Of a stretch of DNA of 64,000 nt, positions 5,835-49,634 are shown piece after piece; position 1 is the stretch's first letter, and the number at the start of each line of letters is the position of its first letter. A program made the translations under genes and the position numbers. The stretch is taken from positions 1-64,000 of the forward strand of contig JAJXTV010000011.1 of assembly GCA_021783515.1 (NCBI GenBank), given 5' to 3'. Below the pieces are notes generated by a model. It saw only the letters and a list, made by a program, of their open reading frames with translations, did not search any database and was not told the origin of the DNA. Origin of the DNA: Nitrospirota bacterium (GTDB lineage Bacteria > Nitrospirota > Thermodesulfovibrionia > Thermodesulfovibrionales > UBA6898).

Positions 5835-5898
5835 TCTGAAACCTCCTTTTTTGTGATGCAATCTGATCATATTAACGGCCGCAAAGTAGTCCTTGCAT

Positions 5899-5945
5899 AA
5901 CTCCTCCTCACCGCCCCTTACCCTAAGAGGGGGAAAGGGGGAATT
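5899..5945 (+). repeat. C/G-rich palindromic repeat, copy a
   Basis: Starts CTCCTCCTCACCGCCCC and ends AGAGGGGGAAAGGGGGAATT, forming an inverted repeat around CCTAAG. The same architecture occurs at 7797-7881 and, inside a coding sequence, at 43259-43313. Confidence 0.65.
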
Positions 5946-6027
5946 AGCCTCGTACATATTATTTTACCCGAATCTCAAGAGCCAGGACATGACGCCCGTC
6001 ATATTCGGATGTCTCTGAAAAAGGGCA

Positions 6028-7796: not shown

Positions 7797-7881
7797 AAAT
7801 AACCCCTCCTCGCCTCCCCCTGCCTCAATGGGAGGAACTGTTCCCCCTCTTGGTAAAGAGGGGGCGAGGGGGAGTTACCCC
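7797..7881 (+). repeat. C/G-rich palindromic repeat, copy b
   Basis: Long imperfect inverted repeat: the left arm AACCCCTCCTCGCCTCCCCC pairs with the right arm ending GGGGGCGAGGGGGAGTTA. The centre holds CCCCCTCTTGGTAAAGAGGGGG. It fills most of the gap between the rhodanese-MBL gene and the next gene. Confidence 0.72.
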
Positions 7882-42795: not shown

Positions 42796-42893
42796 GAGGC
42801 GGCGCCGTGGGCATGCCGATCAGGAAGCACAGGAGCTGGGAATTCTATCGTAAATTGCGCGCATTGTGATGCATGATTCAGGTAGGATATTCC

Positions 42894-45800
42894 ATGTCAG
42901 AAGAACGGTCGCAAGCCGTAAAAATCACCCGTCCCAATCCTTCCGGGGTCCTTTCGCGAAAAAGACTTTTCCAATTAATCGACAGAGGCAGGAAGAAATC
43001 TGTTGTCTGGATTTCAGGACCGGCGGGTTCCGGCAAGACAACTCTCGTTGCCGGTTATCTTAAACAAAGAAAACTGCCTTGTTTGTGGTACCAGGTAGAC
43101 GAAGGAGACAGCGATATCGCATCGTTCTTTTACTACATGGGTCTCGCTGCCAAGAAGGCAGCGCCAAGGGTGAGAAGACCTCTTCCGCTGCTCACTCCGG
43201 AATACCTCCAGGGCGTCCCGACCTTTACGAGACGGTATTTCGAGGAGCTCTTCAGGCGATTAACGCCCCCTCGCTCCCCCTCTTTGGCAAAGAGGGGGAT
43301 GGGGGGTGTTTTCCTTGTCCTCGATAATTTTCAGGATGCATCGTCGCCGGCCTTCCGGGAGGTAATCAGCTGCGGCATGGAGGCAATACCCGAGGGTATC
43401 AACGTTATCGTGCTGAGCCGCTCTGAGCCGCCCGTTCAGCTTGCGCGCCTGCGGGCGAATAACAAGATGACCTTTATCGGATGGAGTGACCTCAGTTTCA
43501 CTCTCGATGAGTGCCGGGCCTTCCTGAAAGCGAAGGGCGGCAACGCCCTGTCTGACGAAACAGCCAGACAGCTTCACAAGAAGACGGACGGATGGGCTGC
43601 CGGGCTTGTGCTTATGACCGAAATGGCGAAGACAAAGGCGATACATCCTTCTTTGATCAGCGAGCTTTCCCGCGAAGCGATCTTCAATTATTTCGCCAGT
43701 GAGATATTCGAAAAGACCGACGGCGAGACCCGCGACTTCCTGCTTAAAACTTCCTTCTTCCCTTCGATGACCGCTGTGGCCGCCGAACAACTTACAGGGA
43801 ATAAAGGTGCGCATGCCATATTGTCTAAGCTGAGCCGTCATCACTATTTTACAGACCGGCGCTCTCGTCCTGATCCCGTATATCAGTATCATCCGCTGTT
43901 TAGAGAGTTTCTCCAATCCCAAGCAAATAGTGCTTTCAACCCCGCTGAAATGAATGGAATAATGCGCAGCACAGCCGCTCTCCTTGAAGATGAAGGACGA
44001 ATCGAGGATGCCGCCGCGCTTTTTATGGATGCCGGCGCATGGGAAAGGCTTGTCGGAATAATCCTCGGTTATGCTCAATCCCTTGTCGTCCAGGGAAGAC
44101 ACAAGACGCTTGAAGAATGGATACTGGGACTCCCCGGCGAGATCAGGGACAAGACCCCATGGCTTCTATACTGGCTCGGCGTATGCCGCCTTGCGTTCAA
44201 TCCGTCCGAAAGCCGTGGGCTTTCAGAACGGGCCTTCTACATGTTTGATGCTCAGGAGGATGACACCGGAGCGCTTCTTTCGTGGACTGCTGTGATACAC
44301 GCGGCCTTTCATGAATGGGATGAATTCGACAGGCTCGACCCCCTCATAGAATGGCTTTATGAGCGCATTCAGCGTAAAGCCGAATTCCCTTCTCCTGAGA
44401 TCGAGGCCCTTGTGGCCACCGGCATGACAACGGCGCTGCTATGGAGGCACAAGTCCGCCTCCGACTTGAGGAGATGGACCGAGAAGGCATTAATGCTCAC
44501 ACAGAAGACAGGCGATGTGAATCTTCGCCTGCAGGCCGGTATTAATGCAGTGCAATTTTATGTCCTAACAGGCGACTTTGCGAATGCCGGCATCATGGGC
44601 GAAGATTTAGGCAAAACAGCGCAGACTCCGGATGTCGCCCCTTTAATGAAGATCCTGTGCGAGGCGATAAAGTCATTTGCGGAGGTCGTAACGATGACGT
44701 CTGATGACCCCATGAGATCGGTTTTGACCGGCCTGGAGGAGGCAAACAAAAGCGATATTCATATGTGGGATCACATGCTTTTTGCCCAGGGGGTATACTG
44801 CTCGCTTAACGAAGGGGATATATCGGCCGGCGGTGGTTTTCTCAAAAATATGAAGGCGTCGCTTGAAGGCCCGAAATGCTTCGGATCATTTCTCTATCAT
44901 TTGCTGTCAGGTTGGTATTGTCTTCTGAGGAATGAAACAATTGAGGCCCTTGCCCACGCGGAAAATGCCCTGAAATATATTTTGGAATCCGGGGCACTCA
45001 CCGTGGCGGCGCTCTTCTGCGTTCATTTCGAAATAGCCCAGGTTATGCACGAACTGCGAGATTACGAGAGGGCGTCCGCACACATGAGACATGCCGGTGA
45101 TTTCGTCCGAAAATCAGAAAGCGCTATTTTGGAGTACATGCATCTCACGGCCGAGGCCCAGTTCGCATTCGACAGAGGCGAGCAAAAACAAGGCTTGAAC
45201 TTTCTTGGAAGGGCGATGACGTTGGGGCGAAAGCAGGGCTATATAAGCATGTTCTGGTGGTGGAGGCCTGACACGATGTCCCGTCTCTGTACAATTGCAC
45301 TGGAACACGACATCGAGATGGAGTATGTGCGTAAGCTGATCATCAAGCGCGGGTTGACTCCCGAAAGGCCAATTGAGGAATGGCCCTATCCGATAAAAAT
45401 ATATACCCTCGGAAATTTCAGACTTCTCAAAGATGACGTGCCGATGGAATTCACCGGCAAGGGCCGGCAGAAGCCTTTGTCCATGCTGAAGACGCTTATT
45501 GCAATTGGGGGAATAGATGTTTCCGAACGACGGTTGGCCGATATTCTCTGGCCCGACGCCGATGGAGATTCGGCCCACAGTAATTTCGATATGACCCTTC
45601 ATCGATTGCGCAATATCCTCGGCAGGGACAATACCATTTTGCTTGCAGGAAGGCTTTTGAGCCTCGATCCGCGCTATTGCTGGGTAGACCTGCAGGCATT
45701 TGAAGATATTGCGAAGAGAGCGGAGGCGGCATGGAGCAAGCCAGGCGGAAGATCGAAAGACAAGAACGAGGGGGCCGTGAAGCTGAGCGAGAAGGCCCTG

Positions 45801-46151
45801 GCAATGTATCGCGGCCCGTTTCTTCCAAATGACGCTGAACTTGACTGTACAACGGCGGTGCGGGAGAGGGTGAGGAAGACGGCCCTTCAACTGGCGGGAT
45901 CATTGGGAAGCCACTGGGAGGATGCGCGGAAGTGGCGGAAAGCTATAGAATGCTATAGGAAAGGGATCGAGATCGACAATCTCTTCGAAGACTTTTACCG
46001 ACGCCTCATGGTTTGCCACACTCATCTGGGCCAAAGGGCCGAGGCCGTTAGGACTTACGACAGGTGCCGTTCACTTTTGTCTTCGACGCTAGGGATCGAG
46101 CCCTCTGAAAAGACCCGGGCCCTTTATGCCAAAGTATGCAGGACCGGCTGA
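42894..46151 (+). CDS. STAND/MalT-like NTPase transcriptional activator with C-terminal BTAD domain
   Basis: 1085 residues. An N-terminal NTPase starts at KITRPNPSGVLSRKRLFQLID, with Walker A GPAGSGKT at 42-49, a Walker B VFLVLDNF at about 142-149 and a WAAGLVLM sensor segment. A long helical TPR-like array (about 350-800) follows, ending in a SARP-type winged helix and a BTAD (IYTLGNFRLLKDDVPM, then HSNFDMTLHRLRNILG). STAND activators bind a signal in the TPR region and oligomerise on DNA. A C/G-rich palindrome (43259-43313) is read in frame directly before Walker B. No DNA-binding LuxR domain is seen. An earlier in-frame ATG exists at 42873. Confidence 0.88.
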   Translation: MSEERSQAVKITRPNPSGVLSRKRLFQLIDRGRKKSVVWISGPAGSGKTTLVAGYLKQRKLPCLWYQVDEGDSDIASFFYYMGLAAKKAAPRVRRPLPLLTPEYLQGVPTFTRRYFEELFRRLTPPRSPSLAKRGMGGVFLVLDNFQDASSPAFREVISCGMEAIPEGINVIVLSRSEPPVQLARLRANNKMTFIGWSDLSFTLDECRAFLKAKGGNALSDETARQLHKKTDGWAAGLVLMTEMAKTKAIHPSLISELSREAIFNYFASEIFEKTDGETRDFLLKTSFFPSMTAVAAEQLTGNKGAHAILSKLSRHHYFTDRRSRPDPVYQYHPLFREFLQSQANSAFNPAEMNGIMRSTAALLEDEGRIEDAAALFMDAGAWERLVGIILGYAQSLVVQGRHKTLEEWILGLPGEIRDKTPWLLYWLGVCRLAFNPSESRGLSERAFYMFDAQEDDTGALLSWTAVIHAAFHEWDEFDRLDPLIEWLYERIQRKAEFPSPEIEALVATGMTTALLWRHKSASDLRRWTEKALMLTQKTGDVNLRLQAGINAVQFYVLTGDFANAGIMGEDLGKTAQTPDVAPLMKILCEAIKSFAEVVTMTSDDPMRSVLTGLEEANKSDIHMWDHMLFAQGVYCSLNEGDISAGGGFLKNMKASLEGPKCFGSFLYHLLSGWYCLLRNETIEALAHAENALKYILESGALTVAALFCVHFEIAQVMHELRDYERASAHMRHAGDFVRKSESAILEYMHLTAEAQFAFDRGEQKQGLNFLGRAMTLGRKQGYISMFWWWRPDTMSRLCTIALEHDIEMEYVRKLIIKRGLTPERPIEEWPYPIKIYTLGNFRLLKDDVPMEFTGKGRQKPLSMLKTLIAIGGIDVSERRLADILWPDADGDSAHSNFDMTLHRLRNILGRDNTILLAGRLLSLDPRYCWVDLQAFEDIAKRAEAAWSKPGGRSKDKNEGAVKLSEKALAMYRGPFLPNDAELDCTTAVRERVRKTALQLAGSLGSHWEDARKWRKAIECYRKGIEIDNLFEDFYRRLMVCHTHLGQRAEAVRTYDRCRSLLSSTLGIEPSEKTRALYAKVCRTG
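43259..43313 (+). repeat. C/G-rich palindromic repeat, copy c, in frame within a gene
   Basis: ATTAACGCCCCCTCGCTCCC then CTCTTTGGCAAAGAGGGGG then ATGGGGGGTGTTTTC. It is the coding-strand version of the repeats at 5899 and 7797 and adds LTPPRSPSLAKRGMGG to the protein without breaking the frame. Confidence 0.75.
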
Positions 46152-46513: not shown

Positions 46514-47761
46514 ATGAAATTCAATTATTTTTTGATGAGAGTTTTCGGCGCTGAAAGGAAAACCATGGGAAAGAAAAGTATGTGTCGTAAAAAGTCAGGT
46601 TTGTTTCTGTTTATCGCGCTTCTATTCCTGTTTTTGTCATTTACCTCAAGTTACGCTGATTGGAGTTCTGTCGCTTCTCCTGCCGTGAGCGCAGGCTGGG
46701 AGCTCAACGGCGCCTCATTCCCCTCTGCAACCGAGGGATGGGCTGTAGGTGGTGATACTACAAACTCCAAGGGTGTATTACTGCATTACAGCTCAGGGGT
46801 ATGGACAAGCGTCGCTCCTCCCGTCGTGAGCGCAAACTGGACGCTCTTAGGCGCCTCATTTCCCTCTGCAACCGAGGGATGGGCTGTAGGTGGTGATACT
46901 ACAAACTCCAAGGGTGTATTACTGCATTACAGCTCAGGGGTATGGACAAGCGTTGCTCCTCCCGCCGTGAGCGCATACTGGTGGCTCAACGGCGCCTCAT
47001 TCCCCTCTGCAACCGAGGGATGGGCTGTCGGTTATGATGGTACAAACCACAAGGGTGTTTTGCTGCATTACAGTGCAGGGGTATGGACAAGCGTCGCTCC
47101 TCCCGCCGTGAGCGCAAAATGGTACCTCAACGGCGCCTCATTCCCCTCTGCAACCGAGGGATGGGCTGTAGGTGGTGATACTACAAACACCAAGGGTGTA
47201 TTACTGCATTACAGCTCAGGGGTATGGATAAGCGTCGCTCCTCCCGCCGTGAGCGCAAACTGGTGGCTCAACGGCGCCTCATTTCCCTCTGCAACCGAGG
47301 GATGGGCTGTCGGTTATGATAGTGTAAACACCAAGGGTGTTTTGCTGCATTACAGTGCAGGGGTATGGACAAGCGTCGCTCCTCCCGCCGTGAGCGCAAA
47401 CTGGTACCTCAACGGCGCCTCATTTCCCTCTGCAACCGAGGGATGGGCTGTCGGTTATGATATTACAAACACCAAGGGTGTATTACTGCATTACAGCTCA
47501 GGGGTATGGACAAGCGTTGCTCCTCCTGCCGTGAGCGCAAACTGGACGCTCTTAGGCGCCTCATTTCCCTCTGCAACCGAGGGATGGGCTGTCGGTTATG
47601 ATATTACAAACACCAAGGGTGTTTTGCTGCACTATGCAACCCCATCTTCAGCTCCAACATCCGTCCCCACCATGAACGAATGGGGGATGCTCGTTTTTGT
47701 GCTGTTTGCCGGAGTTGGAACGATCTACTATCTGAGAAGGCGGTCTGATCTCAGGGGCTGA
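46514..47761 (+). CDS. Secreted seven-repeat protein with IPTL-CTERM sorting signal
   Basis: 415 residues. N-terminal signal peptide (GLFLFIALLFLFLSFTSSYAD), then seven tandem 47-residue repeats (consensus: VAPPAVSANW-LNGASFPSATEGWAVG-D-TN-KGVLLHYSSGVWTS). The GWAVG and GVLLHYSSGVW strands resemble BNR/YCF48 propeller blades, so a seven-bladed beta-propeller is predicted. The C-terminus (SVPTMNEWGMLVFVLFAGVGTIYYLRRRSD) is an IPTL-CTERM motif: PTMNEWGM, a membrane helix, then a basic RRR tail, used for exosortase-type outer-surface sorting. GGAGGAGG precedes the ATG. The BTAD regulator is the nearest upstream gene. Confidence 0.9.
   Translation: MKFNYFLMRVFGAERKTMGKKSMCRKKSGLFLFIALLFLFLSFTSSYADWSSVASPAVSAGWELNGASFPSATEGWAVGGDTTNSKGVLLHYSSGVWTSVAPPVVSANWTLLGASFPSATEGWAVGGDTTNSKGVLLHYSSGVWTSVAPPAVSAYWWLNGASFPSATEGWAVGYDGTNHKGVLLHYSAGVWTSVAPPAVSAKWYLNGASFPSATEGWAVGGDTTNTKGVLLHYSSGVWISVAPPAVSANWWLNGASFPSATEGWAVGYDSVNTKGVLLHYSAGVWTSVAPPAVSANWYLNGASFPSATEGWAVGYDITNTKGVLLHYSSGVWTSVAPPAVSANWTLLGASFPSATEGWAVGYDITNTKGVLLHYATPSSAPTSVPTMNEWGMLVFVLFAGVGTIYYLRRRSDLRG
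46670..47636 (+). repeat. Seven tandem 141-nt coding repeats
   Basis: Units begin at 46670, 46811, 46952, 47093, 47234, 47375 and 47516; the last is cut at its end. Neighbouring units are nearly identical at the DNA level and variants are shared in mosaic form (GGTGATACTACAAAC versus GGTTATGATATTACAAAC), which indicates recent duplication or conversion between units. Confidence 0.92.
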
Positions 47762-49047: not shown

Positions 49048-49093
49048 GCAGCCTCCGTTCCCCGGCCCGCGCGGGCCGGGGAACGGAGGCTGC
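49048..49093. repeat. Perfect 46-bp palindrome
   Basis: The left arm GCAGCCTCCGTTCCCCGGCC and its following three bases are mirrored exactly by the right arm, giving 23-bp arms with no loop around the centre at 49070/49071. It lies 14 bp beyond the stop of the FKBP gene. No T-tract follows on either side, so it is not a standard terminator. Confidence 0.88.
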
Positions 49094-49106: not shown

Positions 49107-49634
49107 CTATTTTACTTCTACCACCTCGACGTCGAATTTCAGGGTCTTGCCGGCCAGCGGATGGTTGAAATCCATGACGACCGAGTCCTTCTTGACCTCC
49201 TTGACCTTGACCGGGATCTTCTGGCCGTCTTTCGACTGCGCAAGCAGGGTCATTCCCGCTTTCGGCGTCATGTCCTTGGGCAGCTGGCTCTTCGGCACTT
49301 CCTGGTAAGCCTTAGGATTGACCGGACCATAGCCCTCTTCCGGCTTGAGCGTGAAGGACTTCTTCTGGCCGACCTTCATGCCCATGACCGCCTTTTCGAA
49401 CCCGGGGATCATCTGGTGGGAGCCTTCCTTGAACTCAAGCGGCTCGCGCCCCTTGGAGCTGTCTACCACCTTGCCGTCCACCGTGAGACTGTAGTTGACC
49501 TTGACGGTCTTGCCGTCCGCCACCTTCGCCGCGCCGTTTTTCGACTTTTCTGCCGCCCAGGCCGGCGCCGAAACGGTCACCGCCGCAAAGACCGCGAAAA
49601 TAAGAACCAGGAACATCACCTTTGCCTTCTTCAT
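49107..49634 (-). CDS. Periplasmic SlyD/FKBP-type peptidyl-prolyl isomerase
   Basis: 175 residues with a signal peptide (FAVTVSAPAWAAEK region, cleaved after AWA). FKBP domain: VKVNYSLTVDGKVVDSS, PLEFKEGSHQMIPGFEKAVMGMKVGQKKSFTLKPEEGYG, with an insert-in-flap region as in SlyD, and DFNHPLAGKTLKFDVEVVEV at the end. It folds proline-containing proteins in the periplasm. No His-rich metal tail is present. Confidence 0.93.
   Translation of the reverse strand: MKKAKVMFLVLIFAVFAAVTVSAPAWAAEKSKNGAAKVADGKTVKVNYSLTVDGKVVDSSKGREPLEFKEGSHQMIPGFEKAVMGMKVGQKKSFTLKPEEGYGPVNPKAYQEVPKSQLPKDMTPKAGMTLLAQSKDGQKIPVKVKEVKKDSVVMDFNHPLAGKTLKFDVEVVEVK

Follow-up and report, generated by a model that had tools for sequence, protein, structure and literature searches.

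A gene for a STAND-type regulator in the Nitrospirota DNA analysed here (the window, 64,000 nucleotides) contains a copy of a short palindromic element that is read in frame immediately ahead of Walker B. The majority of homologues are empty at this site, and in several other lineages the same loop is occupied by repeats of unrelated families. In the reading that we consider highly probable, the regulator gene of an ancestor of a Nitrospirota subclade received an insertion of a short, non-autonomous palindrome, which was kept in a permissive loop.

The palindromic element and its host gene

The full copy of the ~51-bp element lies on the plus strand at 43260–43312 and is read in frame as LTPPRSPSLAKRGMGGV. 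Two intergenic copies of the same element were found on the same strand, one at 5897–5946 and one, a long form with an additional hairpin, at 7799–7878. The three copies score 60.3 bits (E = 4.5e-16), 61.9 bits (E = 1.4e-16) and 41.7 bits (E = 2.8e-10), respectively, with a covariance model (R1) built from seven copies, the three window copies being part of that training set. An earlier sequence-only reading of this DNA had placed a palindrome in the coding sequence at 43259–43313 and in two gaps; the covariance model recovers one element at all three places, and the extent of the coding copy is corrected to 43260–43312. These 53 nt form a near-perfect C/G-rich palindrome that folds to −36.8 kcal/mol. 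Its core, CCCCCTCTTTGGCAAAGAGGGGG at 43276–43298, has a central spacer of 9 bases and yielded 0 chance matches in 100 shuffles. In copies from relatives, the canonical form of ~51 bp is TAACTCCCCC(TC/AA)rCCCCCTCTTANNYTAAGAGGGGGynaGGGGGAGTTA, with TAAC/GTTA ends and the terminal inverted repeats TAACTCCCCC/GGGGGAGTTA.

The host gene (42873–46151, plus strand) encodes a 1,092-aa STAND-type regulator composed of a MalT-like NTPase, TPR repeats and a C-terminal BTAD domain, and its frame is open throughout the palindrome. Walker A (GPAGSGKTT, residues 49–57) is encoded at 43017–43043 and was recognized as a sequence motif; the Walker B strand (VFLVLDN, residues 146–152), supported by motif and model, is encoded at 43308–43328, directly 3′ of the insertion. 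Together with these motifs, the Pfam matches (BTAD, 3.6e-22; AAA_16; TPR_MalT) and the best solved fold match found with Foldseek, the MalT complex 8bob (E = 5.6e-15, TM 0.72), assign the protein to the MalT-type P-loop NTPases with TPR and a C-terminal BTAD. Outside the insert, identity to the homologue L008 is 75% at codon position 2 and 41% at position 3, and by this comparison the gene is under purifying constraint there. The source genome also encodes two paralogues, L037 and L038. The match of the latter (G000:C9:33900-38900) to the regulator is confined to the NTPase part, within a 314-aa open frame, and L038 is possibly a truncated gene or a gene relic.

Size and position of the insertion

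In a tblastn comparison with ~110 homologues, most read RLKPP or similar (RLKPP-F-V-I/L-V-L/F-DN) and pass directly into Walker B with no insert; both own-genome paralogues are likewise empty at the site. Relative to these empty homologues, the net insertion comprises 12 codons, RSPSLAKRGMGG (residues 134–145; 43272–43307, plus strand). The in-frame gain before Walker B thus agrees with the sequence-only reading, and its size does not: the ~16 residues proposed there had counted in LTPP, which is encoded by the element and occupies the place of LKPP in the empty homologues. The element is read as 17 codons and the net gain is 12 (36 nt). Because this gain is shorter than the ~51-nt element, its left end (LTPP) replacing LKPP, the insertion did not simply add the element to an otherwise unchanged site. 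L008, L009 and L010, which also carry inserts, likewise retain the reading frame.

We modeled the NTPase (residues 13–295) with AlphaFold2 from an alignment of 44 homologues. The model has a mean pLDDT of 84.7; in it, the insert is a loop of low confidence (pLDDT ~55) that links a helix to the Walker B strand. When insertions of at least 6 residues were compared across homologues (an insertion-based scan that replaced a bare hairpin scan, which was too noisy), palindromic-repeat insertions were found at this site and, in L177 and L188, at residue ~758 in insert-free numbering. Non-palindromic length variants of at least 6 residues also cluster at 128–137, and nowhere in the regulator family does length vary more than at the insertion site. 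Since length variants cluster there and the loop has a pLDDT of ~55, the site is predicted to be a variable loop and not a sensitive position, contrary to what had been expected for a site next to Walker B in an NTPase.

Recurrent occupation of the same loop

In the homologues L008, L009 and L051, this element is likewise present, with position and frame as in the window gene. In L009 (G018:C81), a second copy is nested in the first, both in frame, and the loop exceeds that of empty homologues by ~33 residues. The loop sequence of L175, from a Thermodesulfovibrio-named MAG of the same family as the source genome, is identical to that of L008; this relationship puts the window in the class Thermodesulfovibrionia of Nitrospirota. 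Other carriers hold different sequences: L010 has a ~90-bp repeat that matches 42 times in the genome G008 but just once more in the genome of L010 itself; L178 (Nitrospiria) and L181 (Chromatiales) have other short palindromes; and L187 and L017 have a GGGTTCGAGGGG-type repeat, further copies of which occur in the L187 genome.

In a 76-row NTPase tree computed after removal of the insert columns, parsimony requires 8 changes to account for the presence of an insert. The sisters of L178 and L181 (L179 and L012, respectively) are empty, with SH-aLRT supports of 98 and 96. A single origin for L007, L008, L009 and L051 is rejected (p-AU 0.019), and one for L007, L008 and L009 alone is not (p-AU 0.227). 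By our count, the loop has been filled by unrelated repeat families through roughly six gains. Homologues with the same loop do exist, which, for distant species, the sequence-only reading had named as evidence against an insertion, yet their loop is not ancestral and reflects shared ancestry within a subclade together with repeated separate insertions. With 8 events distributed over 15 equally tolerant sites, the probability of six or more at one site is ~4e-5, the event counts being our reading of the trees.

The element in other genes and genomes

The genome of the window (3.16 Mb, 48 contigs) contains the element at ~14 places at E ≤ 0.01. Inspection of their surroundings identified the window copy as the only one held by a Pfam-supported gene; one other copy is located close to where an outer-membrane efflux gene starts. 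A copy near L059 was considered as intragenic and rejected, as it sits upstream of the gene. The element is present in 29 of 41 genomes tested, the source genome included. Among 82 high-scoring sites in relatives, a sample biased to the best-scoring copies and with at least one site (MlaA) for which the true start may be downstream, 25 have a frame open for at least 40 codons on both sides, and Pfam matches were obtained for 20 of the corresponding ORFs, which together contain 21 sites. About 20 of the 82 top-scoring copies are in frame in conserved genes of this family, which includes Thermodesulfovibrio sp. SW.3.86 (Nitrospirota). The hosts encode a nitrogenase component-1-type oxidoreductase (nifE/N-like), a TsaD/TsaB-like protein (tsaB), MmeI, a formyl transferase, an O-antigen ligase, a histidine kinase, DnaX, a MiaB-like radical SAM protein, a 2-oxoacid dehydrogenase E2, MnmA, a YjeF/carbohydrate kinase, RlmN, two DapF and others. 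The suggested spread of the element into coding genes is thus apparent in many conserved genes of relatives, and in the source genome it amounts to one of ~14 copies.

A parallel to the STAND loop was found in the dapF loci of relatives (L312–L341), where one loop holds in-frame palindromes in five genomes (G007, G008, G010, G037 and G058) and in-frame tandem repeats, apparently of ~7-bp units in several cases, in seven others, the two kinds of repeat occurring in different genera. Close relatives of several palindrome carriers are empty at this loop, the empty site reading as LDG codons, which are not C-rich, and grouping of the palindrome carriers as one clade is rejected (lnL difference 122, p-AU 1.1e-5).

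In the miaB-like loci (L274/L362, L389 and L390), the linker that joins the UPF0004 domain to the radical SAM domain contains palindromic repeats of two different kinds in G008 and other repeat-like insertions in G039 and G038. The motif search covered some of the miaB-like loci, and the linker is a hint of a third such gene only.

Origin and persistence of the insert

We propose that the element, dispersed through the bacterial family by transposition-like spread, inserted into the regulator gene in the ancestor of a Nitrospirota subclade. The centre of the element in the window copy (TTTGGCAAA) and its phase leave the frame open, and with the frame open the insert would be translated as a net addition of 12 residues. 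Accommodated in the flexible loop that precedes Walker B and follows a helix, the added length would spare the NTPase fold, so the insert could persist with a near-neutral effect. Selection would purge insertions elsewhere and retain those in permissive loops and linkers, which may be why unrelated repeat families share one loop.

The recurrence could instead reflect the mechanism of insertion, with certain loops serving as repeated landing sites of unrelated palindromic or tandem repeats and the loop DNA itself being the preferred target. The element might favour C-rich sequence, such as the L-K-P-P codons CTGAARCCNCCN, which resemble its own end TTAACKCCCCCT. In agreement with this, the element end in L007 reads LTPP exactly at the LKPP position, with a net gain of 36 nt, less than the ~51-nt element, and a comparable overlap is seen in L178 (AATCC for AARCC). 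However, loops of the same kinds are also filled by unrelated repeats that lack this end (L187 and the dapF tandem repeats), the empty dapF site is not C-rich, and ordinary length variation falls at the same sites, so that we regard targeting as unlikely. If loops were targeted, the insertion of repeats would supply them with new sequence in a directed manner, and would do so in several phyla.

Far less room is left for one ancient insertion common to all carriers, followed by repeated precise losses in the homologues that now look empty. A single origin, which is not rejected for the nearest subclade (L007, L008 and L009), would fit such a history, as would the paralogue L037, whose DPPGV-IV could be a deletion remnant; but the addition of L051 to that group is rejected, L010, L178, L181 and L187 hold different repeats, the strongly supported sisters of L178 and L181 are empty, and the empty homologues are of one length, most with a KPP-type motif. 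For the family as a whole, a single ancient insertion is largely refuted, and we consider it very improbable. We think it equally doubtful that the hairpin was selected as a regulatory feature, either as an mRNA hairpin or as a new functional loop, beyond mere tolerance. Although the hairpin is very stable (−36.8 kcal/mol) and one site has been occupied repeatedly, the palindrome has decayed in L051 and L181 with the frame kept, tandem repeats do equally well in dapF, and no peptide is conserved. The best reading remains that of a palindromic element that codes for protein, as in Rickettsia, and is retained in permissive loops.

Relationship to known palindromic elements

Protein-coding palindromes are best known from the obligate intracellular bacteria Rickettsia and Wolbachia. 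The Rickettsia palindromic elements (RPE; Ogata 2000, 2002, cited in PMC6649704 and PMC2229807) and the Wolbachia palindromes are likewise short palindromes with terminal inverted repeats that occupy both intergenic and in-frame intragenic sites and add a short peptide to conserved proteins. The element described here is also a dispersed palindrome inserted in frame in conserved genes, which upholds the likeness to Rickettsia drawn in the sequence-only reading. It differs in being found in another phylum, Nitrospirota, in its length (~51 bp versus 105–146 bp for RPE, compared by published length; PMC2229807), and in that several unrelated repeat families fill one loop in different lineages. 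An RPE in the guanylate kinase of Rickettsia has been reported to be translated, the enzyme remaining active with a changed affinity for its substrate (PMC2229807).

Small palindromes within ORFs of several bacteria are also known as intragenic GTAG/CGTC REPs, including one case, recB of two Xanthomonas species, in which the REP lies at about the same site (Di Nocera 2013, PMC3733652), a parallel to the recurrence observed here. The present element, in contrast, ends in TAAC/GTTA and has neither GTAG nor CGTC. Y1_Tnp genes are present in 33 of the 41 genomes; in 31 Y1_Tnp loci no clear flanking copies of the element were found, apart from one weak edge match (E = 0.014), so that these loci do not support mobilization by a RAYT. 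The element resembles bacterial MITEs with open frames, such as RU-1 and Correia (PMC2229807), which are non-autonomous, have terminal inverted repeats and form in-frame host fusions; it shares the terminal inverted repeats, in a near-perfect 51-bp palindrome, and is shorter. In a literature search of limited coverage, we found neither this element nor such a degree of recurrence.

Coding palindromes are common in uncultured Nitrospirota, including in the housekeeping genes dapF, dnaX and mnmA. Selfish-looking DNA would become protein where the fold tolerates insertion, and the convergent filling of loops by unrelated repeats amounts to a natural insertion-scanning experiment that marks loops tolerating extra sequence. 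It also allows a test of whether tolerance or targeting is the way in which selfish DNA generates novelty in proteins.

Two further features were noted downstream of the regulator gene. An ORF at 46514–47761 consists of tandem ~37-aa repeats (NGASFPSATEGWAVG...) with an MNEWGMLVF-type C-terminal anchor. A perfect 46-bp palindrome with 23-nt arms at 49048–49093, without a match among the other loci retrieved, lies just downstream of a minus-strand ORF (49107–49634) that resembles an FKBP-type peptidyl-prolyl isomerase, and is probably a terminator.
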